64,000 bases of DNA from NCBI GenBank assembly GCA_900469625.1, contig UBXV01000016.1, forward strand, positions 1 to 64,000. Direction: 5' to 3'. The notes beneath the pieces are model-generated. The model was not told the origin of the DNA, did no database searches, and was given only the letters and a program-made list of their open reading frames with translations. Positions within the stretch are counted from its first letter, which is position 1, and each line of letters opens with the position of its first letter. The translations under genes and the position numbers were made by a program. Positions 3,614 through 36,374 of this stretch are shown in pieces. The stretch comes from Hyphomicrobiales bacterium. GTDB lineage: Bacteria > Pseudomonadota > Alphaproteobacteria > Rhizobiales > Rhizobiaceae.

Positions 3614-4684
3614 ATGCTTGAAATGAAGAAGATATCCAAGGTCGTGGGTGGGGAGACGCATATCCACCCGACCGACCTTGTGCTGGAAAGGGGGTCGCTC
3701 AACGTGCTGCTCGGCCCGACGCTTTCCGGCAAGACGTCGCTGATGCGGCTGATGGCGGGGCTCGACAAACCGGCCTCCGGCTCGCTGATCTTCGACGGCA
3801 CCGACGTCACCGGCCTGCCGGTGCAGAAGCGTTCCGTGGCCATGGTCTACCAGCAGTTCATCAACTACCCGTCGATGACCGTCTACGAAAACATCGCCTC
3901 GCCGATGCGCATCAAGGGCACGGACGCAGCCACGATCGACCGCGAAGTGCGCAAGGCCGCCGAACTGCTGAAGCTCACGCCCTATCTCGACCGCACGCCG
4001 CTCAGCCTCTCCGGCGGCCAGCAGCAGCGCACGGCGCTGGCGCGCGCCATCGTCAAGAATGCCGATCTGGTGCTGCTTGACGAGCCGCTCGCCAATCTCG
4101 ACTACAAGCTGCGCGAGGAATTGCGCGAGGAACTGCCGAAGATCTTCTCCGCCTCCGGCGCGATCTTCGTCTATGCGACGACCGAGCCGTCGGAAGCGCT
4201 GCTTCTCGGCGGCAATACCGCGGCACTCAGCCAGGGCCGCATCACCCAGTTCGGCAAGACCATCGACGTGTATCGCCGCCCGGTCGACCTGGTGACGGCG
4301 CGCACCTTCGCCGATCCGCCCCTGAATACGATCGAGCTCGTCAAGTCCGGCTCGATCTTCGCCTTCGACGGCAAGCCCGTGCTGTCGGTCCCGGCCCATC
4401 TCTCGGCACTGCCGGACGGCCCCTGCACGGTCGCCTTCCAGCCGCACCACCTGTCGTTCCAGGCGCCGTTCGACGGCGCCATGCCGCTGACGGTCAAGAC
4501 GGCAATTTCGGAAATCGCCGGCTCCGAAAGCTTCATTCACGTCGGCTTTTCCGGCGCGCGCTGGGTCATGCTGGCGCCGGGCATCCACGACATCGAACCG
4601 GACGCAACCCTGAACGTGTTCGTCGACACCCGTCACCTGATGGCCTTCGGGCCGGATGGGCGCGCGATCGGCGAAACGACCTGA
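3614..4684 (+). CDS. glpS: Glycerol ABC transporter ATP-binding protein 1
   Basis: A 356-residue ATPase of the MalK/UgpC type with a C-terminal TOBE/OB extension. Walker A is GPTLSGKT (34-41), the signature LSGGQ (132-136) is intact, and Walker B is LVLLDEP (152-158) with the catalytic Glu157. The H-loop His is missing: YATTEPSEA puts Thr190 where the family has the His of THD. It is paired with glpT, also 356 residues, whose defects are complementary. Named after the rhizobial glpSTPQUV genes. The gap from glpD is 51 bp, from which I infer the same operon. Confidence 0.88.
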   Translation: MLEMKKISKVVGGETHIHPTDLVLERGSLNVLLGPTLSGKTSLMRLMAGLDKPASGSLIFDGTDVTGLPVQKRSVAMVYQQFINYPSMTVYENIASPMRIKGTDAATIDREVRKAAELLKLTPYLDRTPLSLSGGQQQRTALARAIVKNADLVLLDEPLANLDYKLREELREELPKIFSASGAIFVYATTEPSEALLLGGNTAALSQGRITQFGKTIDVYRRPVDLVTARTFADPPLNTIELVKSGSIFAFDGKPVLSVPAHLSALPDGPCTVAFQPHHLSFQAPFDGAMPLTVKTAISEIAGSESFIHVGFSGARWVMLAPGIHDIEPDATLNVFVDTRHLMAFGPDGRAIGETT

Positions 4685-14869: not shown

Positions 14870-15781
14870 ATGGCCAAGACCAACCTCACCCTCGAGCTTC
14901 TGCTGCTCGCCGTGCTCGCAACGTTGTGGGGCGCATCCTACACCTTCATCAAGATCGGCGTCGAAACCATCCCGCCGGTGACGCTGATCGCCGCCCGCAC
15001 GCTGATCGCCGGCACCGTTCTGCTCGCCATCCTGCGCCTGCGCGGCGTCAGGCTGCCGAGGGACGCGGCCACCTGGAAGCGTTTTGCATTCCAGGCCTGC
15101 CTCAACAGCGTCGTCCCCTTCACCATGATCGCTTGGGCGGAACAGACGATCGATGCCGGTGTCGCCTCGATCCTCAATGCCGCCACCCCGATCTTCGCCT
15201 TCCTGCTGACGGCGCTGATCACCCGCCACGAGGCGGCGACCCCAAGGAAGCTGATCGGCGTGGTGGCCGGCATGGCCGGCATCAGCTTGATCATCGGCGT
15301 CGAAGCCTTCGGCGGTCTCGGCGACCAGCTCTTGCCGCAGCTCGCCGTGGTGTTTGCGACCGCCTGCTATGCGGGTGCGGCCATTTTCGGAAAGAATTTC
15401 CGTGGTCTCGATCCGATGGTGCCCGCCGCGGGCTCACTTCTGACCGGCGCCGTGTTTCTCATCCCGGCAAGCCTGGTGATCGACCAGCCATGGACACTTG
15501 CGCCTTCCGCCCCGTCGGTGATCGCACTCGTCTGCCTTTCCGTGTTCTCGACGGCGCTGGCCTTCGCCATCTACTTCCGGCTGATCCAGACGCTCGGCTC
15601 GGTCGGCACCACGGCGCAGGCATATCTGCGCGTGCCGATCGGGGTCGGCATCGGCGTTCTCTTCCTCGGCGAACGTCTGTCGGACACGATCTGGATCGGC
15701 CTTGCCTGCGTCGTCATCGGTGTCGCGGCCATGACCATTCCAGCGCGCAGGACGAGAGCCGCCATCGCCGAACGCGGCTAG
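14870..15781 (+). CDS. EamA (RhaT/DMT) family exporter
   Basis: A 303-residue inner-membrane protein with two EamA domains (about residues 12-140 and 155-290), giving about ten helices. The opening LATLWGASYTFIKIGVETIPP is typical of DMT-superfamily metabolite exporters. Substrate unknown; relatives export amino acids or other small metabolites. It is monocistronic, bounded by terminators on both sides, and convergent with mur. The ribosome site is weak (AAGGATC before the ATG). Confidence 0.82.
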   Translation: MAKTNLTLELLLLAVLATLWGASYTFIKIGVETIPPVTLIAARTLIAGTVLLAILRLRGVRLPRDAATWKRFAFQACLNSVVPFTMIAWAEQTIDAGVASILNAATPIFAFLLTALITRHEAATPRKLIGVVAGMAGISLIIGVEAFGGLGDQLLPQLAVVFATACYAGAAIFGKNFRGLDPMVPAAGSLLTGAVFLIPASLVIDQPWTLAPSAPSVIALVCLSVFSTALAFAIYFRLIQTLGSVGTTAQAYLRVPIGVGIGVLFLGERLSDTIWIGLACVVIGVAAMTIPARRTRAAIAERG

Positions 15782-15794
15782 GCTCAAGCTAAAA

Positions 15795-15832
15795 CAAAAA
15801 AAGGCGCAGCGATCACCCGCTGCGCCTTTTCG
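15795..15832. terminator. Bidirectional terminator between the EamA gene and mur
   Basis: AAGGCGCAGCG (15801-15811) pairs with CGCTGCGCCTT (15818-15828) around ATCACC, flanked by an A-run on the left and TTTT on the right, so it can serve both convergent genes. Confidence 0.8.
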
Positions 15833-15852
15833 ACCTTAAGAAGCAATGTGGC

Positions 15853-16281
15853 TCAGTCCTTGCGCTTGCGGCAATAGAGCTCGAGCCGGTGGCGAACGAG
15901 GTCATAGCCGAGCTCCGCGGCGATCTCCGCCTGCAGCTGCTCGATCTTGTCGGAGCGGAATTCGATCACGGCACCGGTGTCGATGTCGATCAGGTGATCG
16001 TGATGTGGCGCATCGGCCGTCTCGAAACGGGCGGTGGCGCTTTCGAAGGCGTGGCGATGGACGACGCCCTGCTGCTCTAGCGCTGACAGCGTCCGGTAGA
16101 CGGTCGACAGCGAGACGGTGGCATCGAGCTCCTTGGCGCGGCGGTGCAGTTCGCTCGCGTCCGGATGGTCTTCGGCGGTCGCGAGTATTTTCAGGATTGC
16201 CGCGCGCTGTCGCGTTACGCGCACACCACCGTCCCGAAGCACACCTTCCAGTTCTTTGACGCGATTCTGGTTCTGTTTCAT
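15853..16281 (-). CDS. mur: Mur, manganese-responsive Fur-family regulator
   Basis: A 142-residue Fur-family repressor. The N-terminal winged HTH (about residues 10-80, VTRQRAAILKIL and LSTVYRTLSALEQQG) precedes the metal-binding dimerisation domain with APHHDHLIDIDTG. The C-terminal CxxC zinc motifs of Zur are absent. Divergence from sitABCD over two palindromes identifies it as the rhizobial Mur, which represses sit when Mn(II) is ample, rather than an iron-sensing Fur. Normal length for Mur. Confidence 0.88.
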   Translation of the reverse strand: MKQNQNRVKELEGVLRDGGVRVTRQRAAILKILATAEDHPDASELHRRAKELDATVSLSTVYRTLSALEQQGVVHRHAFESATARFETADAPHHDHLIDIDTGAVIEFRSDKIEQLQAEIAAELGYDLVRHRLELYCRKRKD

Positions 16282-16324
16282 GGCCCTACACTAGCCAAGC
16301 CGGGTTAGTTTGAAAATAGCCAGT

Positions 16325-16360
16325 TGCGAATGCTTCTCATTTGCATTGACTTATGCAAAT
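16325..16360. promoter_or_regulatory. Two overlapping candidate Mur operators between mur and sitA
   Basis: Palindrome 1: TGCGAATG (16325-16332) with CATTTGCA (16338-16345), one mismatch, 5-bp spacer. Palindrome 2: ATTTGCAT (16339-16346) with ATGCAAAT (16353-16360), perfect, 6-bp spacer. They share the central ATTTGCA. A TTGACT at 16346-16351 could be the sitA -35 box, inside palindrome 2, so binding would block sitA transcription. Published Mur-responsive sequences in rhizobia are also TGCAAAT-rich. Confidence 0.65.
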
Positions 16361-16402
16361 CATTCCCCTACTCCTGTGGAAGACAACATCGGGGAGTATG
16401 GA

Positions 16403-17308
16403 ATGATCGATCAGACGAGACGTGCGATCCTGGCGGCTGCCGGCGCTTTGGCAGCCTTCGCGCTCGTTCCGGGTGCCGCGCTGGCGCAGGAGAAATTCAA
16501 GGCCGTCACGACGTTTACCGTCATTGCCGACATGGCCAGGAACGTTGCGGGCGACGCGGCCGTCGTCGAATCGATCACCAAGCCGGGTGCCGAGATCCAC
16601 AACTACCAGCCGACGCCGCGCGACATCCTCAAGGCCCACGATGCCAAGCTGATATTGTGGAACGGCCTCAACCTCGAACTCTGGTTCCAAAAGTTCTTCC
16701 AGAATTTCGATGACGTGCCCGGCGTCGTCGTGTCTGACGGCGTCGAGCCGATGGGCATCGCCGAGGGCCCCTATAGCGGCAAGCCGAACCCGCATGCCTG
16801 GATGTCGCCTTCGGCAGCCCTGATCTATGTCGACAACATCCGCGACGCCTTCGTGAAGTACGACCCTGCCAATGCCGAGACCTACAAGGCCAATGCCGAA
16901 GCCTACAAGCAGAAGATCGAGGCGACAATCGCCCCGATCCGCGCCGAGATCGGCAAGATCCCGGAAGACAGGCGCTGGCTGGTGTCGAGCGAAGGCGCCT
17001 TCAGCTACCTCACCCGCGACTTCGGCCTGAAGGAGCTTTACCTCTGGCCGATCAACGCCGACCAGCAGGGCACGCCGCAACAGGTGCGCAAGGTCATCGA
17101 CGCGGTGCGCGCGCACAACATCCCGGTGGTCTTCTCCGAAAGCACGATTTCGCCCGATCCGGCCCAGCAGGTGGCGCGAGAAACCGGCGCCAAATACGGC
17201 GGCGTGCTCTATGTTGATTCCCTGAGCGAGGCGGACGGTCCGGTCCCGACCTATATCGACCTGCTGCGCGTCACGTCCGAAACCATCGCGAAAGGCCTTT
17301 CGCAATGA
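16403..17308 (+). CDS. sitA: Manganese/iron ABC transporter substrate-binding protein
   Basis: A 301-residue cluster A-I metal-binding protein that captures Mn(II) (and possibly Fe(II)) in the periplasm. It has a signal peptide (residues 1-28, with RR at 6-7 and cleavage after ALA). Expected metal ligands are visible: His66 in AEIHNYQP, a second His in PNPHAWMSP, Glu in [10 protein letters not shown], and Asp in [12 protein letters not shown]. The start ATG at 16403 follows GGGGAG. First gene of a tightly overlapped operon under Mur control. Confidence 0.92.
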
Positions 17309-18240
17309 ACCTTCAGGTGAAACCCGGATCCGGCCCGACGGCAGGCTCGGGGGATATCGGCAGCGGCATCCGCGTCTCCGGCGCGACCGTGACCTATCGC
17401 AACGGCCACCGTGCGCTTCGCGATGCTTCCTTCGAGATCCCGACCGGCACGATCACCGCCCTTGTCGGCGTCAACGGCAGCGGCAAGTCTACCCTCTTCA
17501 AGGCGATCATGGGCTTTGCCCGGCTGGCAAAGGGCGAGATTTCGATCCTCGGCCTTACCGTTCCAGAGGCACTGAAGAAGAACCTCGTCGCCTATGTGCC
17601 GCAGGCCGAGGAGGTCGACTGGAATTTTCCTGTGCTGGTCGAGGACGTGGTGATGATGGGCCGCTACGGCCACATGAACATGCTGCGCATCCCGAAGAAG
17701 GTCGACCATGAGGCGGTGGAGGCAGCCCTTGCCCGTGTTGGCATGAGCGACTTTCGCAAGCGCCAGATCGGCGAGCTTTCCGGAGGCCAGAAAAAGCGCG
17801 TGTTCCTGGCGCGCGCCCTTGCCCAGGATGGCCGCGTCATCCTGCTCGACGAGCCCTTCACCGGCGTCGACGTCAAGACCGAGGATGCCATTATCCGGCT
17901 TTTGATCGGCCTGCGCGACGAAGGCCGCGTCATGCTGGTCTCGACCCACAATCTCGGCAGCGTGCCGGAATTCTGCGACCGCACGGTTCTCCTGAAGAAC
18001 ACCGTGCTTGCCTATGGCCCGACGGAAACGACCTTTACCCGCGAAAACCTCGAACTCGCCTTCGGCGGCGTGCTCCGGCACTTCGTGCTCGGCGGCGACA
18101 GCCTGCATGACGACGCCGACCCGCGGCAGCTCTCCGTGATTACCGACGACGAGCGGCCGCTGGTGATGTACGGCGCCAAGGGGCAGATGGTGTCGCAGCC
18201 GGCCAAGCCCGAGACCGATCCGGAGGCCGAAGGCAAATGA
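17305..18240 (+). CDS. sitB: Manganese/iron ABC transporter ATP-binding protein
   Basis: A 311-residue ABC ATPase. Walker [10 protein letters not shown], signature LSGGQKKR, Walker B VILLDEP and H-loop STHN are all intact. The C-terminus is extended by about 50 polar residues beyond the ATPase core. It overlaps sitA by the four bases ATGA, which implies translational coupling. It energises uptake through sitC and sitD. Confidence 0.92.
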
Positions 18241-19097
18241 TCGCCACGCTCTTGGAGCCCTTTACCTACAGCTACATGGTCAACGCCATGTGGGTCAGCG
18301 CCCTGGTCGGCGCCGTCTGCGCCTTCCTTTCGTCCTATCTGATGCTGAAGGGATGGTCGCTGATTGGCGACGCGCTCTCACACTCGATCGTTCCGGGTGT
18401 CGCCGGCGCCTATATGCTCGGCCTGCCCTTCTCGCTCGGCGCCTTCTTTTCCGGCGGGCTTGCGGCCGGCGCCATGCTCTTTCTCAACCAGCGCACCCGG
18501 CTCAAGGAAGACACCATCATCGGGCTGATCTTCACCTCGTTCTTCGGTCTCGGCCTGTTCATGGTGTCGCTGTCGCCGACCTCGGTGAACATCCAGACCA
18601 TCGTACTCGGCAACATCCTCGCGATTACGCCGGCAGATACGCTGCAGCTCGCGCTGATCGGCGTCATCTCGCTGATCATCCTGACGGCCAAGTGGAAGGA
18701 CCTGATGGTCACCTTCTTCGACGAGAGCCATGCGCGCTCGATCGGCATTCCGACGACATTCCTGAAGATCCTGTTCTTCACGCTGCTGTCGGCGTGTACG
18801 GTGGCAGCGCTGCAAACGGTCGGCGCCTTCCTCGTCATCGCCATGGTGGTGACACCGGGGGCGACGGCCTACCTGCTCACCGACCGTTTCCCGCGGCTGA
18901 TCGTCATCAGCGTCACGATCGGCGCGCTCACCAGTTTCTTCGGCGCCTATTTCAGCTACTTCCTCGACGGCGCCACCGGCGGCATCATCATCGTGCTGCA
19001 GACGCTGATCTTTCTTGTCGCCTTCGTCTTCGCGCCGAAACATGGACTGCTGGCGGCCCGCCGGCGCAGCGCCGAAGCCCTGGAGGCCGCGCCATGA
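18237..19097 (+). CDS. sitC: Manganese/iron ABC transporter permease 1
   Basis: A 286-residue integral membrane permease of the ABC-3 family (ZnuB/MntB type) with about eight helices. [20 protein letters not shown] is the conserved loop of this family and [18 protein letters not shown] lies near the end. Both ends overlap neighbours by four bases (sitB and sitD). Half of a heteromeric pore with sitD. Confidence 0.92.
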
Positions 19098-19945
19098 TTT
19101 CGCTCGACCTTCTGCTCGCCGTCTTCGAGTTCGAGTTCATGCGCAACGCGCTGCTGATCTCGGTGCTGGTGGCAATCCCGACCGCCCTGCTCTCCTGCTT
19201 CCTCGTGCTGAAAGGCTGGTCGCTGATGGGCGACGCCATTTCGCATGCGGTCTTTCCCGGCGTCGTCATCTCCTACATCGTCGGCCTGCCGCTTGCCGTC
19301 GGCGCCTTTGCCGCCGGCATGTCCTGTGCACTCCTGACGGGGTATCTGAAGGAAAACAGCCGCATCAAGCAGGACACCGTGATGGGCGTGGTCTTTTCCG
19401 GCATGTTCGGCTTCGGCCTGGTGCTCTACACCAAGATCCGCAGCGACGTGCATCTCGACCACATCCTCTTCGGCGATATGCTCGGTATCGGCTGGCCCGA
19501 TATCATCGAGACCGGCCTGATCGCGCTGGTGGCAACCGTGATCCTCGCTTTGAAATGGCGGGATTTCCTGCTGCACGCCTTCGATCCGGCCCAGGCCAAG
19601 GCCGTCGGCCTGCGCGTCAACTGGCTGCACTATGGGCTCTTGGCGATCCTGTCGCTGACCATCGTCGGCGCGCTGAAGGCTGTCGGCCTGATCCTCGCCA
19701 TCGCCATGCTGATCGCGCCGGGCGCCATCGCGTTCCTGATCACCCGCACCATGGGCAGCATGCTCATCGTCGCCGTGGTGGTCGCGACCGTCGCCTCGTT
19801 TACGGGCGTCTATCTCTCGTTCTTCATCGACAGCGCCCCGGCGCCGACCATCGTGCTGCTGATGACCGTGATCTTCCTCGCCGCCTTCCTCTGGTCGTCC
19901 TTCCGGGCAGCCCGCATCGAGGCGCAGAGGACGACGGTCGAATGA
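19094..19945 (+). CDS. sitD: Manganese/iron ABC transporter permease 2
   Basis: A 283-residue ABC-3 permease homologous to sitC, with the parallel motifs LVLKGWSLMGDAISHAVFPG and GLILAIAMLIAPGAIAFL. The ATG at 19094 overlaps the sitC stop by four bases; an in-frame extension to 18290 would cover sitC and is rejected. Last gene of the operon, followed at once by a strong hairpin. Confidence 0.92.
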   Translation: MISLDLLLAVFEFEFMRNALLISVLVAIPTALLSCFLVLKGWSLMGDAISHAVFPGVVISYIVGLPLAVGAFAAGMSCALLTGYLKENSRIKQDTVMGVVFSGMFGFGLVLYTKIRSDVHLDHILFGDMLGIGWPDIIETGLIALVATVILALKWRDFLLHAFDPAQAKAVGLRVNWLHYGLLAILSLTIVGALKAVGLILAIAMLIAPGAIAFLITRTMGSMLIVAVVVATVASFTGVYLSFFIDSAPAPTIVLLMTVIFLAAFLWSSFRAARIEAQRTTVE

Positions 19946-19947
19946 AT

Positions 19948-19980
19948 TCGAGGCTCCCTTCCGCGGGAAGGGAGCCTCGA
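19948..19980. terminator. Perfect 15-bp hairpin between sitD and the atpB-like gene
   Basis: TCGAGGCTCCCTTCC (19948-19962) pairs perfectly with GGAAGGGAGCCTCGA (19966-19980) around a GCG loop. It sits 2 bp past sitD and 10 bp past the stop of the convergent atpB-like gene. No long T-run on either side, but position and strength suggest a shared terminator. Confidence 0.65.
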
Positions 19981-19990
19981 CACTGTCACC

Positions 19991-20740
19991 TCAATGGCTC
20001 GGATGCAGCGCGTCGTTGAGATACATGCAGGTCAGCATGGTGAAGATATAGGCCTGGATGACCGACATCAGCAGTTCGAGACCCGTCAGCGCCACGGTCA
20101 TCATCAAGGGCATGACAGCACCGAGCATGCCGAGCGCGCCGAAGCCGCTGAGGCTGACGACGAAGCCGGCAAACACCTTCAAGGTGATATGGCCGGCGAG
20201 CATCACGGCGAAAAGACGAACGGAGTGGCTGACCGGGCGCGACAGGTAGGAAACGACCTCGATCGGGATGATGATCGGCGCCAGCACCAACGGCACGCCC
20301 GACGGCATGAACAGCCGCAAGAAGCCGAACCCGTGCTTGACCAGGCCGTAGATGGTCACGGTCAGGAACACCAGCAGCGCCAGCGCGAAAGTCACGGCGA
20401 TATGGCTCGTCACCGTGAAGGCATAGGGGAACATGCCGATCAGGTTGGCGACCAGGATGAACATGAACAGCGAGAACACCAGCGGGAAGAAGCGCATGCC
20501 GTGCTCGCCGGCATTTTCCCGCAAGGTCTTCGACACGAACTCGTAGAGAATTTCGGCCGCCGACTGTGCCCGGTTCGGCACCAGGCCACGCCTGCGCGTC
20601 GACAAGATCAGGAAAAGGCTGGCGATCGCCACCGTCGCGATCATGAAGACCGACGAATTGGTGAAGCTGATATCGTGTCCGCCGACCTCGGCGATGTGGA
20701 AGAGCGACTTGATCTCGAATTGTTCGATGGGTCCGGCCAT
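19991..20740 (-). CDS. atpB: Orphan ATP synthase F0 subunit a (AtpB-like)
   Basis: A 249-residue membrane protein that is clearly F0 subunit a: [23 protein letters not shown], the helix containing the essential Arg (Arg175 in [13 protein letters not shown]) and [22 protein letters not shown] near the C-terminus. Subunit a forms the proton half-channels. It is alone: atpI, atpE and atpF do not flank it, although rhizobial F0 genes normally form a cluster. The residue four after the Arg is Val179 where family members have Asn. The second of two adjacent ATGs (20740) has GAGG at the best spacing. Probably a paralogue of the true atpB elsewhere; that cannot be confirmed here. Confidence 0.85.
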
Positions 20741-21103
20741 CATGAACCTCGTGCGTTGGCAACGGAGCAACCACGGCGCGCCTGCGGCGGCCGCGGGCGC
20801 ATCACTTTGTGGGAGAAACGGGCGAAAGCCGCGCTCGCGACGGGACGCGCTGGCGCCCGAGGCAAAACGGCTCTGTCAGGAAAAGATAGCGCACGCGGGC
20901 GTGCCGCAGGCCTGGATGCTGCATGATGCGATCGACTCCATTATCTCACGGATCGAGATAGTGGGGCCGTCCCCAGGCGAAGCATCGACGCGGGTCGTCC
21001 CGCGTGCGCCTGACCTAGAGATAATTTCTGTTGCGGTCAAGCCGACAGGCACCCGCAGCGTGGGCTGCAGCCTCGCAAGCTTGCTCATCCCGCCGGCCGA
21101 GGT
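20741..21103. other. Intergenic region upstream of the orphan atpB
   Basis: 363 bp without a convincing gene. It contains a dyad, CCATTATCTC (20938-20947) with GAGATAGTGG (20955-20964), one mismatch; a short hairpin TGGGG/CCCCA at 20962-20975; another GAGATAAT at 21018-21025; and a possible minus-strand promoter TTGACC (21035-21040) - 17 bp - TAGGTC (21012-21017). No atpI remnant was seen. Confidence 0.4.
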
Positions 21104-22009
21104 TCAGCCAAAATCCCTGTGATCGCCCAACACCTCTTCGATGACGCGGCGGCTCTTGTCGGCTTCCGCCGCGTTCGTGCCAGGGAGGCCGGCAGAGACA
21201 ATCAGCGCCTTCCACAGGGCCCAGCCGCGACCGCGCGCCCAGGTGCCGGCATCGAGCGCGACGCCGGCGCGAAACGCCTCCCGGCTTTCCCCACGAAACA
21301 GCGTCCAGGCGATGGCGAGGTCACAGGCGGGATCGCCAATGCCGCACGTGCCGAAATCGATGACGGCACCGAGGCGGCCCTCTTCCACCAGCAGATTGCC
21401 CCAACTGATATCGCCATGGAACCAGATCGGCGCGCCCTGCCATGTCGCAGAAAGCGCCGCCTCCCAGACATCAACAGCCGCTTGCGTGTCAATCCGCCCC
21501 TCAAGCGCCGTCAGCGCCCGGCGCGTCTCAGCGTCATAGTGGGCAGGCGGCCCGCCGCGAAAGAAATTGTGCGACCCCGGCAGCGGACCACCACTTGGAT
21601 CCACGTGCCTCAGGGCGACGAGAAACCGAGCAAGATCCTCGGCAAAAACCTTGAGATCACCGATGCGCTCGTCCGCTGCCGTCTCTCCCCGCAGCCAGCG
21701 ATAGACCGACCATGGCCATGAGTAGCCCTCGCCGGGCACGCCCTTTGCAACCGGCACCGGGATCGGCAACGGCAAATGCGGGGCAAGCTTCGGCAGAAAG
21801 ACCTGCTCCTTTTCCACCTGCAGCGCATAGGACGCAGCGCTCGGCAGCCGCACGATCATGTCCTCACCGAGATGAAAGGTCCTGTTGTCCCAGCCGCCTG
21901 GCAGCAAAGGCTTGATGTCGAGCCCCGTCCATTGCGGAAACTGCGCGGCGATCAGGCGCCGAACCAGCGCCGCATCGATGGTGGGTGTGGTCGTCGATCG
22001 GTCGAACAT
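21104..22009 (-). CDS. Aminoglycoside phosphotransferase (APH) family kinase
   Basis: A 301-residue protein-kinase-like small-molecule phosphotransferase. The catalytic Brenner motif FHGDISWGNLL and the metal-binding IDFG motif (GAVIDFGTCGIGDPACDL) are intact, and the N-lobe has LLPGGWDNRTF. The family includes antibiotic kinases but also many metabolic kinases, so resistance should not be assumed. The ATG at 22009 is the sensible start because extension to 22234 would overlap the next gene. Monocistronic or weakly linked to its neighbours. Confidence 0.8.
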   Translation of the reverse strand: MFDRSTTTPTIDAALVRRLIAAQFPQWTGLDIKPLLPGGWDNRTFHLGEDMIVRLPSAASYALQVEKEQVFLPKLAPHLPLPIPVPVAKGVPGEGYSWPWSVYRWLRGETAADERIGDLKVFAEDLARFLVALRHVDPSGGPLPGSHNFFRGGPPAHYDAETRRALTALEGRIDTQAAVDVWEAALSATWQGAPIWFHGDISWGNLLVEEGRLGAVIDFGTCGIGDPACDLAIAWTLFRGESREAFRAGVALDAGTWARGRGWALWKALIVSAGLPGTNAAEADKSRRVIEEVLGDHRDFG

Positions 22010-22098
22010 GTGCGAACAAGCGCCTCGCCAAAGTCGGGACGCCTGTTTTAGCCGATCGTCGTGCGATCGCAATGTGCCGGCCTGAGGCGCAAGACGAC

Positions 22099-23223
22099 CT
22101 AGCCGATCCGCGTCGCCTTCAGCCTGTCTTCGTCGAGCGCGACGCCGAGCCCGGGAGCCTCGCCGAGCTCGAGCCAGCCGCCTGCATGGCGCAACGGCGC
22201 CATCATCGGATAATCGCGACGCATCTCGCTCCATTCGGGATTGTCGTAGGGATATTCGAGAAACGGCGCGTCGCCGACACCGGCGGTCAGATGGGCGTTG
22301 GCGAGCACGCCGATGCCGTTTGTCCAGGAATGCGGCGTCATCATCACGCCGGCCTCGCGCGCCTGGAAGGCGAGGCGCCGGCAGCCGGTGATGCCGCCGA
22401 CGAGCGCCACATCAGGCTGGATGACGTCGAAAGCGCGATCCTCGATGATATCGCGAAACTCGTAGAGCTCGCGGGTCATCTCACCACCGGCGATACGCAG
22501 CGACGTCGCGTCCGAAAGCCGCCGCATGCCCTTGCGGTCCGAGCGGTGCAGCGGCTCCTCCATCCAGTAGATGCCGAGCTTCTCCAGCTCGCGCGCAACC
22601 GTCAACGCATCCTTGAAGGTCCAGGAGAGCGTCGTGTCCCAGGGCATCCGCCAACCCTGGTTGCAGTCGACCATCAGCTCCAGCCGGTCGCCGACACGCG
22701 CGCGGATCGCTTCGAGCGCCCGCACGTCGTCGCGCCAGGTGCCACGACCACCGGCCGACGATGAGAAGCGCACCTTCATCGCCGGAAAACCTTCGTCGAC
22801 ATAGCTTTCGGCTTGAGCCGCCATGGCACCGGGGTCGCGCAGCACGCCCGACGACGCATAAAGGCGGACCCGATCGGACCTGCCGCCGAGCAGCCGCCAA
22901 ACCGGCTCACCCGTCACCTTCCCCGCGAGATCCCACAGCGCGAGATCCATCGGCCAGCAGCGGCCATAGTGGAAGTTGATGTGCGAGAGCACCTCGTAAT
23001 GGCGTTCGAGCTGACGGGGATCCGTGCCGACGAACAGGTCCTCGTGGCCCTCGAACCCCTTCATCAGGTCGCCGGAGCCGATGCCCTCGCGACCCTCGTC
23101 GTCCCTGACGCGCACGATGGTGGCATCGAACTGCCGGCGCGGTCGACCGTCCCAGCTCGCCTTGAACGGCGGATCGAGCGGCAGGCGATGGTGGCTGATC
23201 TCGATGGAAACGATCTTGCTCAT
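22099..23223 (-). CDS. Mandelate racemase/muconate lactonizing enzyme family (acid-sugar dehydratase-like)
   Basis: A 374-residue enolase-superfamily enzyme, probably Mg-dependent. Visible ligands and catalytic residues: Lys in FPAMKVRFSS, Asp in LMVDCNQGW, Glu in WMEEPL, Glu in IAGGEM, Asp in VIQPDVALVGG and His in MTPHSWTNGIG, which is the His/Asp dyad of the mandelate racemase subgroup. The usual second Lys of KxK is Arg here. Substrate is probably a sugar acid; the exact one cannot be read. Third gene of a probable operon with an aldehyde dehydrogenase and an alcohol dehydrogenase. Confidence 0.8.
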   Translation of the reverse strand: MSKIVSIEISHHRLPLDPPFKASWDGRPRRQFDATIVRVRDDEGREGIGSGDLMKGFEGHEDLFVGTDPRQLERHYEVLSHINFHYGRCWPMDLALWDLAGKVTGEPVWRLLGGRSDRVRLYASSGVLRDPGAMAAQAESYVDEGFPAMKVRFSSSAGGRGTWRDDVRALEAIRARVGDRLELMVDCNQGWRMPWDTTLSWTFKDALTVARELEKLGIYWMEEPLHRSDRKGMRRLSDATSLRIAGGEMTRELYEFRDIIEDRAFDVIQPDVALVGGITGCRRLAFQAREAGVMMTPHSWTNGIGVLANAHLTAGVGDAPFLEYPYDNPEWSEMRRDYPMMAPLRHAGGWLELGEAPGLGVALDEDRLKATRIG

Positions 23224-23241
23224 GGTCCCTCCCCCGAAGGC

Positions 23242-24741
23242 TCAGCCGAACTGCTGCCAGATGGTCTTGTAGTCGCAATATTTGTCGATCGCATGCACGG
23301 AGCGGTCGCGGCCGAAGCCCGACTGCTTGAAGCCGCCGAAGGGTGTGGCGAAATTCGACATGTCGTAGGTGTTGATCCAGACGGTGCCGGCATGGATCGC
23401 CTCCGAAAACCGGTGTGCCCGGTCCATATCCCGGGTGAAGACGGCGCCGGCCAGTCCGTAGATCGTGTCGTTGGCGATCGCCAGCGCCTCCTCCTCCGTA
23501 TCGAAGGCGATGGCTGCTAGCACCGGGCCGAAGATTTCCTGCCGCGCCAGCCTCATGTCGTTGGTCATGTCGACGAACACGCCGGGCGAGACATAGTAGC
23601 CGCCGCTCTCGGCCATCACCCGCTCGGCCCCGAAGGCACGGCGTGCGCCCTCCTTCTCGCCGCTCGCGATCAACGACAGCACCTTTTCCAGATGCGCCTC
23701 CTCGATCAACGCGCCGATCTGGGCTGCCGGGTCGAGCGGATGCCCGAGCGCGATGTCGCTCTTCGTCACCGCCTCGATCTTCCTGATCAGCGCATCCTGG
23801 ACGGACCGCTGCACGATCAGCCGGGTCGAGGCGTGGCAGGTCTCGCCGGAATTGTAGAAGCAGCCCCAGGCGACGGCGGATGCGGCAGCATCGAGGTCGG
23901 CATCTTCGAAGACCACCAGCGGCGACTTGCCGCCGAGCTCCAGCGCCACCCGCTTGACGTTCGACTGCGCCGCATAACCCATGATCAGCTTGCCGACCTC
24001 GGTCGAGCCGGTAAAGGCGATCATGTCGACATCCATATGCAAAGCCAGCGGCTTGCCGGTCTCCTCGCCATAGCCGGTCACGACGTTGAAGACGCCTTCG
24101 GGCAGGCCTGCCTCGACGGCGAGGCTTGCAAGGCGGATCGCGGTCAGCGACGATTGCTCGGCCGGTTTCAGCACGACGGAATTGCCGGCCGCGATCGCCG
24201 GCCCGAGTTTCCAGGCGTCGATGATCATCGGGTAGTTCCAGGGTGTGATCACGCCGATGACGCCGAGCGGCACCTTGCGAACCAACGCCCGGGCATTCGG
24301 CCCGGTGGGGGCGATCTCGTCATAGAGCTTGTCGATCATCTCGCCGTAGAACTGGATGCCGTCGGCGCAGAGCCGGACGTCGACATTGAGCGACGCCATG
24401 ATCGGCTTGCCGACATCGAGCGTTTCGAGCATGGCGAGTTCCTCGCCGTGGGCGCGGATCAGATCGGCCCATTTGAGCATGATCTTCTTTTTCTCGAGCG
24501 GATCTTGTCGGCGCCAGACGCCGCTTTCGAAGGCGGCCCGCCCGCTCCTGACCGCCGCATCGATATCGGCAGCGCCACCGCGCGCGATCGTCGGACCCTC
24601 TCTGCCATCCATCGGACGGGCGCGCGTGAACGTTTCGCCGGAGATGCTGGCGCGATGTTTGCCGTCGACGAAGTGCCTTCCCTCCAGCGTGAGTGCCGAC
24701 AGGACATTTTCCCAATAGTCGCGACTATAGGCCTTGCTCAT
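23242..24741 (-). CDS. NAD(P)-dependent aldehyde dehydrogenase
   Basis: A 499-residue ALDH-superfamily enzyme that oxidises an aldehyde to its acid. The catalytic Cys is in NSGETCHAS, the general-base Glu in ALELGGKSP, the oxyanion Asn in TPWNYP, and the cofactor loop is FTGSTEVGK. Sequence style is that of betaine/gamma-glutamyl-aminobutyraldehyde dehydrogenases, so substrate is open. The ATG at 24741 is preferred over an in-frame start at 24813 because the extra 24 residues are unconserved-looking and Arg-rich. 16 bp after the Fe-ADH gene and 18 bp before the enolase-family gene. Confidence 0.85.
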   Translation of the reverse strand: MSKAYSRDYWENVLSALTLEGRHFVDGKHRASISGETFTRARPMDGREGPTIARGGAADIDAAVRSGRAAFESGVWRRQDPLEKKKIMLKWADLIRAHGEELAMLETLDVGKPIMASLNVDVRLCADGIQFYGEMIDKLYDEIAPTGPNARALVRKVPLGVIGVITPWNYPMIIDAWKLGPAIAAGNSVVLKPAEQSSLTAIRLASLAVEAGLPEGVFNVVTGYGEETGKPLALHMDVDMIAFTGSTEVGKLIMGYAAQSNVKRVALELGGKSPLVVFEDADLDAAASAVAWGCFYNSGETCHASTRLIVQRSVQDALIRKIEAVTKSDIALGHPLDPAAQIGALIEEAHLEKVLSLIASGEKEGARRAFGAERVMAESGGYYVSPGVFVDMTNDMRLARQEIFGPVLAAIAFDTEEEALAIANDTIYGLAGAVFTRDMDRAHRFSEAIHAGTVWINTYDMSNFATPFGGFKQSGFGRDRSVHAIDKYCDYKTIWQQFG

Positions 24742-24757
24742 CCGTTTCGCCCTTCGC

Positions 24758-25945
24758 TCACGCCGCCTTCGGCAACGCCATGATCTCTGCTGCAAAGTTA
24801 TCGATATCGGCATCGTCGATCGGGCGGATCGTCGAGCGCCGCATCGGCTGGTTTTCCGGCGCCTTCATTTCCGCTGCGAGATCGGCGGCGCCATAGGCCT
24901 CGAAGGCGACGGGAAGGGCCCTGACGATGCCACAGCGATCCATCAGGCGCGAAACGAAGTCCGGAAGGTCGGCTACCCGGGACAAGCCACAGGCGCGCGC
25001 AGCAGCCTCAAGCTCGGCCGTGTCGGCATCGACGAGCCAGCCGAGCGTCGCCTCAAAACCGAGCGCTGTCGCAAGCCCATGATGAACAGGGGCCAATCCC
25101 GCCAGCGCATGGCTGATGTTGTGGGCAACGGCCGTACCGCAATTGTCGATGGCAATGCCCGCATAACAGGAGCCGAGCAGCACATCGGCGCGGGCCTGGA
25201 GATCATTGGGTTCGCGAACCGCCGTTTCCAGCGACGCGGTCAGCAGGCGCATGGCCTCGTGGGCGTAGAACTGCGCGCCACGGTGGCTGTTGCGGTTCGT
25301 CGCCGCCTCGAAGGCGTGAATGAAGGCGTCGAGCCCGCACCAGGCCGTCAGTTGCGCGGGCAGCGTCGTCGTCAGCACCGGATCGAGCAGCACCAGGTCG
25401 GCCTTGGTTTCCGCGCCCCAGATCCAGAGCTTCTTGCCCTCGGGCCCGGCAAAGATGTTGGTCGCCGACGTCTCGGAACCGGTGCCCGCCGTCGTCGGCA
25501 CCATGATCTTCTTCAAGGGCGCCTTCGGCAATGGATTGGCGGCAAGCGCATAGAACATCGGATCTTCGCCGGACGCGGCGCAGCAGGCGGCAATCTTGGC
25601 GATATCCAGCGCCGAGCCACCGCCAACGCCGATGACGGTATCGGAACCGATGGCCGCTGCGGTGGCTGCCCGCACATGCGCCAGTTTTGGCTCGCCGGCA
25701 AAATCGGAAAAGACGCGGGCTGAGATGCCTTCCTGCTCGAGGCTCTCGACGATGCGGCCAGCAAGGCCGGACCGGGCGAGAAAGCCGTCGATCACCAGCG
25801 TTGCCGTTTTTGCCCCCTGGACTTTCGCGGCCGTGCCGATGGTCGTATGGATATTGTCTGCCAGGCGGATTTCGGGAATGAAGGACGTGGAGAAGGACAA
25901 AGTCGTCTTCCTGTCGCGCGGGATGATCGCTTTACCCTGCATCAC
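24758..25945 (-). CDS. Iron-containing alcohol dehydrogenase (maleylacetate reductase-like)
   Basis: A 395-residue group III alcohol dehydrogenase. NAD-binding GVGGGSALDIAK lies near residue 108, PTTAGTGSE near 150, and metal ligands Asp and His in CGLDAFIHAFE plus His residues in NISHALAG and VHHGLATA are intact. It would reduce or oxidise an alcohol/aldehyde in step with the downstream ALDH. First gene of the probable operon; divergent from a LysR gene 54 bp away. Substrate not identifiable. Confidence 0.83.
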   Translation of the reverse strand: MMQGKAIIPRDRKTTLSFSTSFIPEIRLADNIHTTIGTAAKVQGAKTATLVIDGFLARSGLAGRIVESLEQEGISARVFSDFAGEPKLAHVRAATAAAIGSDTVIGVGGGSALDIAKIAACCAASGEDPMFYALAANPLPKAPLKKIMVPTTAGTGSETSATNIFAGPEGKKLWIWGAETKADLVLLDPVLTTTLPAQLTAWCGLDAFIHAFEAATNRNSHRGAQFYAHEAMRLLTASLETAVREPNDLQARADVLLGSCYAGIAIDNCGTAVAHNISHALAGLAPVHHGLATALGFEATLGWLVDADTAELEAAARACGLSRVADLPDFVSRLMDRCGIVRALPVAFEAYGAADLAAEMKAPENQPMRRSTIRPIDDADIDNFAAEIMALPKAA

Positions 25946-25999
25946 AATCTGATATTTTCAAATCCGCGCAATTTTCGGCCTTTTTGATAACCTGAGATC

Positions 26000-26911
26000 A
26001 TGGAACACCGGCTGCTCGATCGCATACCGCTGGAGGCCTTTCGCGTATTCGACGCCGCCAGTCGGCATATGAATTTTTCCCGTGCCGGTCGGGAGCTCAA
26101 CATCACCCAGGCCGCCGTCAGCCGGCGGATCAAGACGCTTGAGGATCATCTGGGTAGCCCGCTCTTCAGCCGTCGCGGCAAGAACCTCGAACTGACGCCA
26201 CAGGGCGAGAGATTGTTTCAACGCGTGCGGGCCTCGCTTGATTATCTCGAAGAAAGCCTCGAGCCCTTCCGTGGAGCGACCGGCCAAGCGATCTCGATCG
26301 CCGCCAGCGGTTCGGTCTCCCATCTCTGGCTCGGCGCCAGGCTGCGCGAGTTCGGCAAGGAGAACCCGGATATCTCGATCCGGCTCCTGACGTCAGACAG
26401 CCCGTCGGAGCTGGCATCCGAAAACAACGACCTCGTCATTCTCTATTCGACCGGCGATCACCCGCGCTGGCACCTGTCGCCGCTGATGGCGGAGGACCTG
26501 GCACCAGTCGCCTCACCCGACTATCTCGCCTCACGCGGGCTCGCCGCGGAGGCCCTGACGCCGCAGGTGCTCTCGACCCTCGATCTCATCGACTATGATC
26601 GCTTCAATGCCAACTGGGTCTCTTTCCAGCAATGGTTCGAGCGCACCGGGGCTGCCCCACGGGGCACGAAATTGCGACCCCGATACACCTTCTCGACCTA
26701 TGTCATGGCCGTAGACGCCGCCCTGCGCGGCGATGGCGTGGCACTCGGCAGCCTCGGGCTCCTGCGCGAGCATATCGACGACGGACGGTTGCTCGTCCTT
26801 GGCGGCAAGACGCTCGCCACCGGCTATGGCTATTATCTCGGCCTGCCGCGCAACCGACCATCGCGTGACGAGGTGCTGCGCCTGCACGCAGCGCTTGGAA
26901 GATCGACGTGA
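26000..26911 (+). CDS. LysR-family regulator (GcvA-like)
   Basis: A 303-residue LysR regulator. The HTH is AFRVFDAASRHMNFSRAGRELNITQAAVSRRIKTLEDHLG (residues about 11-50 in two parts), followed by an effector domain. The opening and the SPLFSRRGKNLELTPQG segment are typical of the GcvA group. It is divergent from the Fe-ADH/ALDH/enolase-family genes with only a 54-bp gap, so it probably controls them. Confidence 0.87.
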   Translation: MEHRLLDRIPLEAFRVFDAASRHMNFSRAGRELNITQAAVSRRIKTLEDHLGSPLFSRRGKNLELTPQGERLFQRVRASLDYLEESLEPFRGATGQAISIAASGSVSHLWLGARLREFGKENPDISIRLLTSDSPSELASENNDLVILYSTGDHPRWHLSPLMAEDLAPVASPDYLASRGLAAEALTPQVLSTLDLIDYDRFNANWVSFQQWFERTGAAPRGTKLRPRYTFSTYVMAVDAALRGDGVALGSLGLLREHIDDGRLLVLGGKTLATGYGYYLGLPRNRPSRDEVLRLHAALGRST

Positions 26912-31299: not shown

Positions 31300-31710
31300 T
31301 CAGGCCGGGATCACGATTTCGCCGAGCTTCGTCAGTTCGGCGATGAACTGTTCGACGCGCGTCTTCTTCTCGTCGCCGGCGCCTTCCAGCTCTGCACGGG
31401 CACCCTCGATGCGCTTTTCCAGCGCGGTGCGGTCGAGTTCGTCGACGTGCACGGCGGATTCGGCAAGCAGGGTGCAACCGGTCGGCAGGATATCGGCAAA
31501 GCCGCCGAACACGACGAAACGCTCGGTCTTGCCATCAGCCGTCTTCACGGTAACGATGCCAGGCTTGATCGTCGTCATAGTCGGGGCATGATTGGCCATC
31601 ACGGTCATCTCGCCCTCGGTCGCCGGGATGACGACTTCCGTCACCTTGGCAGAAAGGAGCAGGCGCTCGGGGGAAACAAGCTCAAAATTGAAACTGTCGG
31701 CCATGACCAT
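31300..31710 (-). CDS. atpC: ATP synthase F1 subunit epsilon
   Basis: A 136-residue subunit. The N-terminal beta-sandwich (FNFELVSPERLLLSAKVTEV, then PATEGEMTVMANHAPTM) is well conserved, and a helical C-terminal part follows. It is part of the central stalk and modulates ATPase activity. Last gene of the operon; the 120-bp gap from atpD is the largest within it. Confidence 0.93.
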   Translation of the reverse strand: MVMADSFNFELVSPERLLLSAKVTEVVIPATEGEMTVMANHAPTMTTIKPGIVTVKTADGKTERFVVFGGFADILPTGCTLLAESAVHVDELDRTALEKRIEGARAELEGAGDEKKTRVEQFIAELTKLGEIVIPA

Positions 31711-31830
31711 TCACTTCTCGTGGGCGCGCCACCTGAGGTGGCAGGCTGTGCATGTCTTCCCTGCTCCGCGATCAACGGAACGCAGGATGAAAGCCTCGGC
31801 ACATGGCTGCGCCGAGGCTTAACATTGCTA

Positions 31831-33369
<1,539 letters not shown>

Positions 33370-34251
33370 TTAGAGCGCTTCCGCGCCCGAGATGATTTCA
33401 ATGAGTTCCTTGGTGATCTGAGCCTGGCGCTGACGGTTGTAGTTCAGCGTCAGTTTGTTGATCATGTCACCAGCATTGCGCGTCGCATTGTCCATCGCGC
33501 TCATCTTCGCACCCATTTCGCCTGCGACGTTCTCGAGCAGCGCCCGGAAGATCTGCACCGAAATGTTGCGCGGAATAAGATCGCTCAGGATCGCGCCCGC
33601 GTCCGGCTCATATTCGTAGACGGCCGAAGCATCAGATGCTTCCGCTGCGACCGGGCCGGCCGAAGCGGGGATCAGTTGCTGTGCCGTCGGAATCTGGGCG
33701 ATAACGGACTTGAACTCAGAATAGAACAGCGTGCAGACATCGAACTCGCCCTTTTCGAAGAGCGCGATGACCTTGTGGCCAATCTGGTCGGCGTTCTGGA
33801 AGCCGATCTTCTTGACCTCACGCAGGTCGACACGATCGATGATCAGCGACGCGTATTCGCGACGCAGAATATCGAAGCCCTTCTTGCCGACGCAGATGAT
33901 CTTCACCGTCTTGCCAGCGGCAATCAGCTTGCGAACGTGATCGCGAGCGTGGCGGGCGATCTGCGAGTTGAAGCCGCCGCAAAGGCCGCGTTCAGCCGTG
34001 CAGACGACCAGAAGATGGGTGTCGTCCTTGCCGGTGCCCGTCATCAAGGCAGGCGCACCGTCGTCCGCGCCAACCGCCTGGGCGATGTTGGCGAGAACGG
34101 CAGCCATGCGCTGCGAATAAGGCCGGGCGGCCTCGGCCGCCTCCTGCGCACGCCGAAGCTTCGCCGCGGCGACCATTTTCATCGCCTTGGTGATCTTCTG
34201 CGTCGCCTTGACGGAGGCGATCCGGTTCTTCAGATCCTTAAGTGAAGGCAT
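33370..34251 (-). CDS. atpG: ATP synthase F1 subunit gamma
   Basis: A 293-residue central rotor shaft. The N-terminal helix [31 protein letters not shown] (in two runs) and the C-terminal [21 protein letters not shown] are the conserved coiled-coil ends; [12 protein letters not shown] is the family motif. 27 bp after atpA and 24 bp before atpD. Confidence 0.95.
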
Positions 34252-34278
34252 CCGTTATCCGTCCTAAATGAAATCCGC

Positions 34279-35808
34279 TCAGGCGAAAGACTTGGCGAAG
34301 CTGTCGATTGCAGCCTTCAGCTTGCCCTTGACGTCGTCGGAGATCGCCTTGTCCTTGCGGATGGTTTCCAGGATGTCCTTGCCTTCCGAACGCATGTACG
34401 AAAGCAGGCCCTGCTCGAACTTGCCAACCTGGTTGACCGGCAGCTTGTCGAGGTAGCCGTTGACACCTGCGAAGATGACGGCGACCTGCTCTTCCGTCTT
34501 CAGCGGCGAGAACTGCGGCTGCTTCAGGAGTTCGGTCAGGCGTGCACCACGGTTCAGCAGACGCTGGGTAGCGGCGTCGAGGTCGGAGCCGAACTGCGCA
34601 AAGGCCGCCATTTCGCGGTACTGAGCCAGTTCACCCTTGATCGAGCCTGCAACCTGCTTCATCGCCTTGATCTGCGCGGCCGAGCCGACGCGCGAAACCG
34701 ACAGACCGACGTTAACGGCCGGACGGATGCCCTGGTAGAACAGGTCGGTTTCAAGGAAGATCTGGCCGTCGGTGATCGAGATCACGTTGGTCGGGATGAA
34801 CGCGGAAACGTCGTTGCCCTGGGTTTCGATGACCGGCAGAGCCGTCAGCGAGCCGGCACCATTGTCGTCCGAGAGCTTTGCAGCGCGCTCGAGCAGACGG
34901 GAGTGCAGGTAGAAAACGTCGCCAGGGTAAGCTTCGCGGCCCGGCGGGCGGCGCAGCAGGAGCGACATCTGACGGTAGGAAACAGCCTGCTTCGACAGGT
35001 CGTCGTAGCCGATGAGAGCGTGCTTGCCGTTGTCACGGAAGTATTCGCCCATCGCGCAACCGGCGAACGGTGCGAGGTACTGCATCGGAGCCGGGTCGGA
35101 TGCGGTCGCTGCAACGATGATCGAGTACTGCAGGGCGCCACGCTCTTCCAGAACCTTCACGAACTGGGCAACCGTCGAACGCTTCTGGCCGATTGCGACG
35201 TAGACGCAATACAGCTTGTCACCTTCCGGACCATTGTCGTGAATGGCCTTCTGGTTGAGGATCGTGTCGAGGATGATCGCGGTCTTGCCGGTCTGGCGGT
35301 CGCCGATGACGAGCTCGCGCTGGCCACGGCCAACCGGGATGAGGGCATCGATGGCCTTGAGGCCGGTCGACATCGGCTCATGCACCGACTTGCGCGGAAT
35401 GATACCAGGAGCCTTGACGTCAACGCGCGAGCGCTGCTTGGCGTTGATCGGGCCCTTGCCGTCGATCGGGTTGCCGAGCGCGTCGACGACGCGGCCGAGC
35501 AGTTCCGGACCAACCGGAACGTCCACGATGGCGCCGGTCCGCTTAACGGTGTCGCCTTCCTTGATGTCACGGTCCGAACCGAAAATAACGACGCCGACAT
35601 TGTCGGCTTCGAGGTTCAGCGCCATGCCGCGAATTCCACCCGGGAATTCGACCATTTCGCCTGCCTGAACATTGTCGAGGCCGTAGACGCGGGCGATACC
35701 GTCACCGACGGAAAGCACCTGACCGACTTCGGAGACTTCTGCTTCCTGGCCGAAATTTTTGATCTGATCTTTAAGAATTGCGGAAATTTCCGCGGCGCGG
35801 ATATCCAT
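34279..35808 (-). CDS. atpA: ATP synthase F1 subunit alpha
   Basis: A 509-residue regulatory nucleotide-binding subunit. The P-loop GDRQTGKT is near residue 170, and the segments [35 protein letters not shown] (in two runs) and the C-terminal helical bundle are normal. Its ATG overlaps the atpH stop by one base, so translation is coupled. Confidence 0.96.
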
Positions 35809-36374
35809 CAGCCGACCTCTTTCAGTGCAAGCTTAAGGGTAGAGAGTTTGGTGCGAAGGGAAGTGTCAATCTGGCGGGACCCGACCTTGACGATCAGACC
35901 TCCAAGAATAGACGGGTCGACGGTGACGTTGACCGTCACGTCTTTGCCGGTGACGCTCTTGAGCGCCGCCTTCAATTCAGTTTCCTGCGCTGCGGTGAGC
36001 GCATGGGCCGACGTAACGTCGGCAGAAATTTCACCCCGGTGGCGCGCGGCGATCAGGCGAAACGCCTTGATCATGCCCGGCAGCGCGAAGAGGCGGCGAT
36101 TGCGCGCAACAACCTTGAGGAAGTTACCGACGATGCCAGAGATGCCGGCCTTGGCGACGATCGCCGAAATGGCCTTGAACTGGTCGTCGGCAGAAAAGAC
36201 GGGGCTTACGATCAGCCGCTTCAGGTCTTCGCTGCCATCGATCAGGGCCTGGACGCGGGTAAGATCCGCACCGGCCGCCTCGACGGAACCCGCTTCGAGA
36301 GCGAGGTCAAAAAGCGAGGACGCATACCTTTCTGCAACACCGGAAATAAGCTGGGATGTGTCTGCCACGGGCAC
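35808..36374 (-). CDS. atpH: ATP synthase F1 subunit delta
   Basis: A 188-residue peripheral-stalk subunit linking F1 to the F0 b subunits. It has the OSCP/delta fold, with the N-terminal segment [19 protein letters not shown] and the C-terminal [21 protein letters not shown] typical of the family. First gene of atpHAGDC. The F0 genes are not adjacent, as is usual in rhizobia. Confidence 0.93.

Follow-up and report, generated by a model that had tools for sequence, protein, structure and literature searches.

Why should a bacterial genome carry, besides its normal gene for subunit a of the F0 part of ATP synthase (atpB), a second such gene that stands alone and is altered beside the essential Arg? 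This question is raised by a gene, in the following called atpB2, within the stretch of 64,000 nucleotides that was analysed as a whole (the window). An earlier note on this DNA had described a lone, full-length atpB homologue, and this could be substantiated: the open reading frame on the minus strand is intact (249 aa, zero internal stops), it was identified as F0F1 ATP synthase subunit A by NCBIfam NF004482 with 373.7 bits against a cut-off of 225, and it matched PF00119 above the cut-off, the homology being full-length.

The atpB2 locus and the normal atpB of the same genome

The earlier note took atpB2 for a second copy and proposed a search of the genome for another atpB. By profile search (E <= 0.001), two PF00119 genes were found. 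The other one is a normal atpB on contig 50, 66% identical to atpB2 and with an Arg-helix that reads RPISLSVRLFANMLAGH, so that atpB2 is indeed a second copy. The normal gene lies in a cluster of the order atpI-B-E-B', its neighbours being an AtpI-type gene, identified by Pfam ATPase_gene1, and genes for subunit c and subunit B/B', both identified by NCBIfam. The atpE of this cluster is the single c-subunit gene found in the genome. Because no second c-subunit gene was found when the genome was searched at E <= 0.001, AtpB2 would use the normal c ring. In the window, the housekeeping F1 operon has all its genes and, as already described, zero F0 genes inside, an arrangement that is normal in alphaproteobacteria; presumably it pairs with either subunit a.

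The N-ATPase or alternate F1F0 (TIGR03306) likewise gives a genome two genes for subunit a. An assignment of AtpB2 to this type was rejected, since it reached 77.5 bits against a cut-off of 302.1 and its gene is alone, without the other subunits.

The neighbours of atpB2 are sitD and an APH-family gene, as the earlier note had it. On one side lie two ABC-3 permeases, an ABC ATPase, a ZnuA-type binding protein and a FUR-family regulator, and on the other side the APH-family gene. As sitD and atpB2 are convergent, they have no common promoter. The hairpin noted directly after atpB2 is real: its arms (19948-19962 and 19966-19980) are 15 nt each and 100% complementary, and it is perhaps a shared terminator or mRNA end. 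In a terminator scan of 19900-21250 this hairpin was absent from the output, and neither sigma-70 nor terminator scans of that interval gave a signal above chance. Another hairpin with flanking A and T runs was observed between EamA-family and FUR-family genes at 15756-15832 on the plus strand; its match to STnc40 is below threshold (27.9 bits against 45) and it looks like a terminator.

Features of the atpB2 locus and of the F1 operon in the window
Feature	Coordinates	Strand	Basis or residues
Perfect 15-bp hairpin at the converging ends of atpB2 and sitD	19948..19980	.	sequence complementarity
atpB2, alternative F0 subunit a, 249 aa	19991..20740	-	H172, R175, V179, H184, E222, M225, Q229
Leader between riboswitch and atpB2	20741..20961	-	alignment of Ensifer leaders and ORF listing
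Guanidine-II (mini-ykkC) aptamer	20962..21004	-	Rfam RF01068 match
Housekeeping F1 operon: delta, alpha, gamma, beta, epsilon	31300..36374	-	NCBIfam matches

A Guanidine-II riboswitch and the genes in its company

The earlier note had given atpB2 its own upstream region, which is correct, but the riboswitch in this region went unreported. In an Rfam search of 15000-26000, the Guanidine-II family (RF01068) gave a match upstream of atpB2 that, at 37.9 bits, exceeds the gathering score of 32 (E 9.5e-5). Besides a score above gathering, the element has the two-hairpin architecture and the ACGR loops of the family, with P1 at 21004-20989 (loop ACGA), a spacer at 20988-20976 and P2 at 20975-20962 (loop ACGG). 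It lies on the same strand as atpB2, 221 nt from its start, and is the sole Guanidine-II match in the genome (E <= 0.001); a search for Guanidine-I riboswitches in the genome at E <= 0.001 found none. When 29 elements including that of the window were aligned, the stems showed covariation: 94.5% of cells were paired and 41 cells had changed on both sides, compared with 11.7 in shuffles.

The association between riboswitch and gene was followed in two sets of loci, which share genomes and are not independent samples. In the whole-genome set (38 loci: 14 intact in the genus, window included, one in pieces and 23 in other genera of the family), a Guanidine-II element at or above gathering score lies directly upstream of atpB2 in 37 of 38 cases; in the 38th (L016) the element was detected with 42.8 bits by R1, a riboswitch model built from 29 of the atpB2-upstream elements. 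The named-genome set consists of the best 80 of 187 matches, one of which (L137) is a normal atpB, leaving 79 loci with a gene of the Val type described below. An R1 element was found directly upstream in 75 of these 79, the loci without a match being L085, L115, L117 and L124; a count of 74 based on the gene finder omits L107, where the gene was missed and which does carry the riboswitch. The record of L115 is titled Bacillus subtilis SK6B4 and has gene clusters common to Pseudochrobactrum contigs, so its label looks wrong.

A separate scan with a strict filter placed Guanidine-II beside atpB2 in 26 of the 27 atpB2 genomes among 247 of the family, and in the 27th it was found by R1. Upstream of normal atpB genes, none of 19 sources (18 places, as L002 and L021 are the same) reached the Rfam gathering score; in a more permissive R1 search of these sources, L056 reached 18.8 bits (E 0.008) and two more matches had E > 1. 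Gene order round atpB2 varies between genera, and riboswitch and atpB2 stay paired. As this riboswitch family senses guanidine, its presence suggests, by analogy, the condition under which atpB2 would be induced.

The leaders differ in length. In Ensifer, the riboswitch is followed by a TATCTC...GAGATA hairpin and by the start of a short ORF, GGAG...ATGCAGC, that is mostly conserved, and the remainder drifts (window 20880-21050, minus strand). A CTTGACC box, which we take to resemble a rhizobial -35, was seen 5' of the riboswitch in 6 of 7 aligned Ensifer leaders. In the case of L074, L075 and L126 (Pseudaminobacter, Brucella tritici, Aquibium), only 14-22 nt separate the end of the riboswitch from the start codon of atpB2. 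All four short leaders that were folded (these three and L133) place the Shine-Dalgarno inside a hairpin using the 3' side of P2, with fold energies 1.6 to 3.0 sd below shuffles; these values belong to the four relatives, the leader of the window having been aligned only. Because this hairpin takes the 3' side of P2, P2 and a closed ribosome site would be mutually exclusive, which in the predicted folds of the short-leader relatives would amount to the logic of an ON switch.

A small multidrug resistance (SMR) gene follows atpB2 in 27 of 80 loci, and 23 of these 27 have a Guanidine-II of their own. Ten SMR proteins were tested: searched against NCBIfam at E 1e-28, all ten gave SugE and no other family, four being above its cut-off of 126 bits and the others at 113-125. 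Riboswitch-controlled proteins of the SugE type are the guanidinium exporters Gdx, which export one guanidine per two protons taken up (PMC12186494 section 5). Thus, atpB2 shares the company of guanidine detoxification, with an SMR/SugE gene alongside in about a third of the loci. In the case of the window the SugE-type gene is away from atpB2, and its genome carries one elsewhere. Just upstream of that gene (L141, 1802-1837, minus strand) a weak riboswitch-like match of 11.8 bits (E 0.43) was observed, which may be a worn Guanidine-II or chance.

A ChaA-like cation/proton antiporter gene lies upstream in 10 loci (L078, L079, L084, L086, L103, L112, L122, L127, L128, L131), with Guanidine-II directly in front of it in all ten; the one protein tested scored 194.8 bits, below the model cut-off of 505. 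Five loci contain a lone PhaF/MrpF gene, each with its own Guanidine-II, and the one PhaF tested was above its cut-off (107.7 bits against 93). This gene lies on the minus strand at 3778-4063 of L112, with Guanidine-II at about 4150-4230, and similarly in L122, L127, L128 and L131. All five lone PhaF have Pro where normal PhaF/MrpF have Glu or Asp (4/4, extracted from four of ten loci; two of the four are another MrpF type). AtpB2 and this PhaF, both spares of one subunit with a less polar site in the membrane and both behind one switch family, look as target replacement would. Altogether, the family has at least 30 Guanidine-II loci: 15 with gdx alone, 7 with atpB2, 3 with chaA and 5 with none of these.

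Changes at the proton inlet, spread and selection

The earlier note had pointed to a Val four residues after the Arg, where Asn is found in E. coli and is typical of alphaproteobacteria. This difference is real and fixed. Position 179 is Val in 37 of 37 atpB2 rows and Asn in 27 of 27 normal rows (two being the same protein) and in 25 of 25 rows from other alphaproteobacteria. Val179 was likewise found in all 38 whole-genome loci, which were chosen independently of the six peptide patterns behind the named-genome set, one of which contains the Val and could favour it. Counted by distance from the universal Arg (R175 = aR210) rather than by an E. coli alignment, and with residue names per PMC8754430 and PMC11121307 (both in part), V179 has the position of E. 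coli aN214, beside aR210.

Comparing 80 atpB2 with 37 normal rows, from which L137 (atpB2 set, a normal atpB) and L057 (normal set) had been dropped before counting, complete switches from normal to atpB2 were obtained for L172H, N179V, I125F and V225M, and nearly complete ones at positions 107 (Ala for Phe) and 228 (Ile for Leu). With L137 and L057 kept, N179V and V225M are still complete, and L172H and I125F are not. The rows from other alphaproteobacteria (25 from 29 loci; L206, L208, L216 and L220 were left out) have Leu172, Asn179 and Val/Ile225 in 25 of 25 cases and Leu228 in 24, so these atpB2 states are particular. Phe125 is common elsewhere in alphaproteobacteria (20 of the 25 rows) and was rejected as a hallmark. 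His172 was rejected as a unique one, as Paracoccus denitrificans (5dn6) also reads SHSIR, and so does a normal gene from a MAG (L057, whose protein is identical with that of L137).

The rest of the channel set is kept in atpB2, namely R175, H184, E222, Q229, E161 and S164, and Asn179 alone is replaced; the Arg, Glu, His, Ser and Gln at these sites are identical in atpB2, normal and other alphaproteobacterial rows. In an AlphaFold model of AtpB2, which is of moderate quality (mean pLDDT 76.9, the other four models 59-62), residues 172, 175 and 179 share a predicted helix, and the following one carries 222, 225 and 229. Superposed on solved subunits a, the model was closest to 6b2z (TM 0.82), with 6oqr at TM 0.69. 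The E. coli counterparts of the two helices line the inlet half-channel (PMC11121307, in part), where aN214 adjoins aR210 and cD61 (PMC8754430 and PMC9447477, both in part). Exchanging aN214 for Val, Leu, Gln or Glu in E. coli lowers ATP-coupled proton conductance and growth on succinate is retained (PMC11121307, in part), aN214L shifts the pH dependence upward, and a Gly or hydrophobic residue is natural at this site in Toxoplasma and Thermus (both in the accessible part of PMC8754430).

Regarding its spread, 14 of the 16 genomes examined from the genus, that of the window among them, have an intact atpB2. In G007 (L030) it is in two overlapping pieces in different frames with the riboswitch retained, which may be decay or a sequencing error, and in G013 only the normal gene was found. 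In the family, an atpB2-like gene (>= 71% identity) is present in 27 of 247 genomes and is thus patchy; some genomes (among others G036, G040, G042, G061, G082 and G112) gave a second subunit-a-like match of another type than atpB2. In a tree of 89 rows, which took 37 of the 80 atpB2 rows and was a quick search with SH-aLRT support only, all 37 are set apart by a branch with SH-aLRT 99 and adjoin the family's normal atpB. Judged from these sequences, atpB2 looks like one old duplication retained in patches, which has perhaps moved between lineages at times. Two hallmark codon patterns, one of which recovers 77 and the other 78 of 80 known atpB2 and neither of which matches any of 38 normal genes, were found in 0 of 384 other genomes of the class and 0 of 198 other genomes of the order (six of the same family). 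The peptide-pattern search of named genomes gave carriers in Afipia, Kaistia, Bosea, Tardiphaga and Reyranella.

A test of selection across Ensifer, also proposed in the earlier note, gave a median dN/dS of 0.11 (28 pairs, dS 0.20-0.57), about twice that of the normal atpB (0.054). atpB2 is under purifying selection. The description of the gene as specialised or decaying is supported in its first half, and decay is rejected on dN/dS together with conservation.

What a guanidine-linked subunit a may be for

We propose that AtpB2 is induced by guanidine and takes the place of subunit a in the housekeeping ATP synthase, where it would keep F0 working under guanidinium; this reading, with the induction, assembly and tolerance that we infer in it, is given an even chance. 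A rise of guanidinium would, judging from the RNA family and the SD-sequestering folds of the relatives, raise AtpB2 expression through the Guanidine-II riboswitch, and AtpB2 would then join the normal c ring, b/b' and F1. The swapped F0 would retain the remaining half-channel residues, with Val in place of Asn beside the essential Arg, and this Val may close or dry a polar pocket at the proton inlet. Free guanidinium, being a copy of the Arg side chain, could otherwise reach the c-ring carboxylate through the water-filled inlet and compete for it. With AtpB2, the synthase would go on turning while exporters clear the guanidinium.

The computed parts of this proposal are the riboswitch match, the conservation, the residue swap, the single c gene and the selection. 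It is favoured by the fact that the only Guanidine-II found in the genome lies upstream of atpB2 with its pairing conserved, by the SugE-type exporter alongside in other loci, by the fixed Asn-to-Val exchange with channel residues retained under purifying selection and a single atpE, and by the Shine-Dalgarno in the P2-using hairpin of all short leaders folded. Against it count the dN/dS of about twice that of normal atpB, the patchiness in the family, the four loci without an R1 match and the 221-nt leader of the window's own atpB2. Guanidinium is able to mimic and displace Arg side chains, and biguanides inhibit the mitochondrial ATP synthase at unknown sites, partly in F1 (both PMC4148174, in part); no report of guanidinium itself blocking F0 was found in the literature.

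The main rival, which we hold to be rather unlikely, is a guanidine-induced throttle: a slower or alkaline-shifted F0 would save pmf and protect pH during export by Gdx, and tolerance would not be the point. The lowered ATP-coupled proton conductance of E. coli aN214V, with growth on succinate retained (PMC11121307, in part), fits a throttle as well as a shield. The upward pH shift of aN214L (PMC8754430, in part), the two protons spent per guanidinium by Gdx (PMC12186494 section 5) and the resemblance of further genes behind Guanidine-II to cation/proton antiporter genes also speak for it, but it does not readily explain why a second machine should have a spare of one subunit, PhaF, which is also without its acidic residue. 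Replacement and throttle share their firm part, namely a second subunit a behind a guanidine riboswitch. We see little chance that AtpB2 makes the swapped F0 leak or carry guanidinium, as an exit or controlled leak; the hallmark changes are indeed located at the inlet half-channel, but the essential Arg and the other examined channel residues are kept and Val makes the inlet less polar.

It is equally hard to believe, and slightly more so, that the riboswitch senses guanidine mainly on behalf of the short leader ORF in Ensifer, with atpB2 loosely coupled: the long gap and the mostly conserved ORF start there agree with this, but the riboswitch ends close to the atpB2 start codon, at 14-22 nt, in the three short-leader relatives named above. 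A redundant or decaying second atpB with no special role would explain the raised dN/dS, the pieces in G007, the absence from G013 and the patchiness, and is still very improbable given the low absolute dN/dS, the fixed switches, the intact copies in most of the genus and a riboswitch conserved across genera. Finally, the earlier note had linked atpB2 to metal stress through its sit neighbour. The sit genes adjoin atpB2 in 9 of 81 neighbourhoods examined, which are the window and eight Ensifer/Sinorhizobium loci, and on this limited occurrence the link to sit was rejected. A subunit a tuned for Mn stress and tied to sitABCD has next to no probability left, as sitD converges on atpB2 across their common hairpin, other genera have other neighbours, and the riboswitch family senses guanidine, thus naming another condition.

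Returning to replacement, a wider form of it is possible, though we advance it tentatively: in answer to guanidine, guanidinium-proof spare subunits may be fitted into at least two proton machines of Hyphomicrobiales, namely the ATP synthase (subunit a) and a cation/proton antiporter (PhaF). In either spare, a polar or acidic residue of the membrane path has been lost. On this view the free guanidinium ion would naturally inhibit proton paths as a mimic of the essential Arg, and resistance would have, beside export, a second arm in the replacement of targets.

The families involved are all known, and the combination of a second subunit a with a guanidine riboswitch appears new. AtpB2 resembles the F-type subunit a (AtpB; PF00119, NF004482) as a full-length homologue that matches solved subunits a in its predicted model and retains the channel residues, but it differs in its lone gene with its own riboswitch, Val for Asn beside the Arg, and Met225. 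The RNA is of the same family as the Guanidine-II that controls gdx/sugE, which also lies beside atpB2 in the 27 loci; the gene controlled here is, however, an ATP synthase subunit and not an exporter, importer or degrading enzyme. A cation riboswitch controlling ATP synthase genes is also described in the part of PMC9971707 available to us, where Na+-I precedes the genes of a Na+ ATP synthase; there it is the Na+ enzyme's genes, whereas atpB2 is one replacement subunit with a different ligand. No link between a guanidine riboswitch and atpB and no second rhizobial atpB was found in the literature, within the titles and abstract openings listed and article texts available in part, and outside their supplements, where a bare listing may exist (e.g. 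additional file 8 of PMC2864571); the available parts of PMC12342949 and PMC12119724 likewise hold no such link.

In conclusion, atpB2 is a natural variant at the residue beside the essential Arg, fixed across many genera, and atpB and atpB2 form a matched enzyme pair for testing how the inlet channel passes protons to the c ring. If the replacement reading is true, a riboswitch-controlled spare part of the ATP synthase would be a different kind of guanidine response, and the energy machinery would be indicated as a cellular target of guanidine. Altogether this suggests that, in this soil bacterium and in many related ones, the energy-making machinery is refitted upon a build-up of toxic guanidine.
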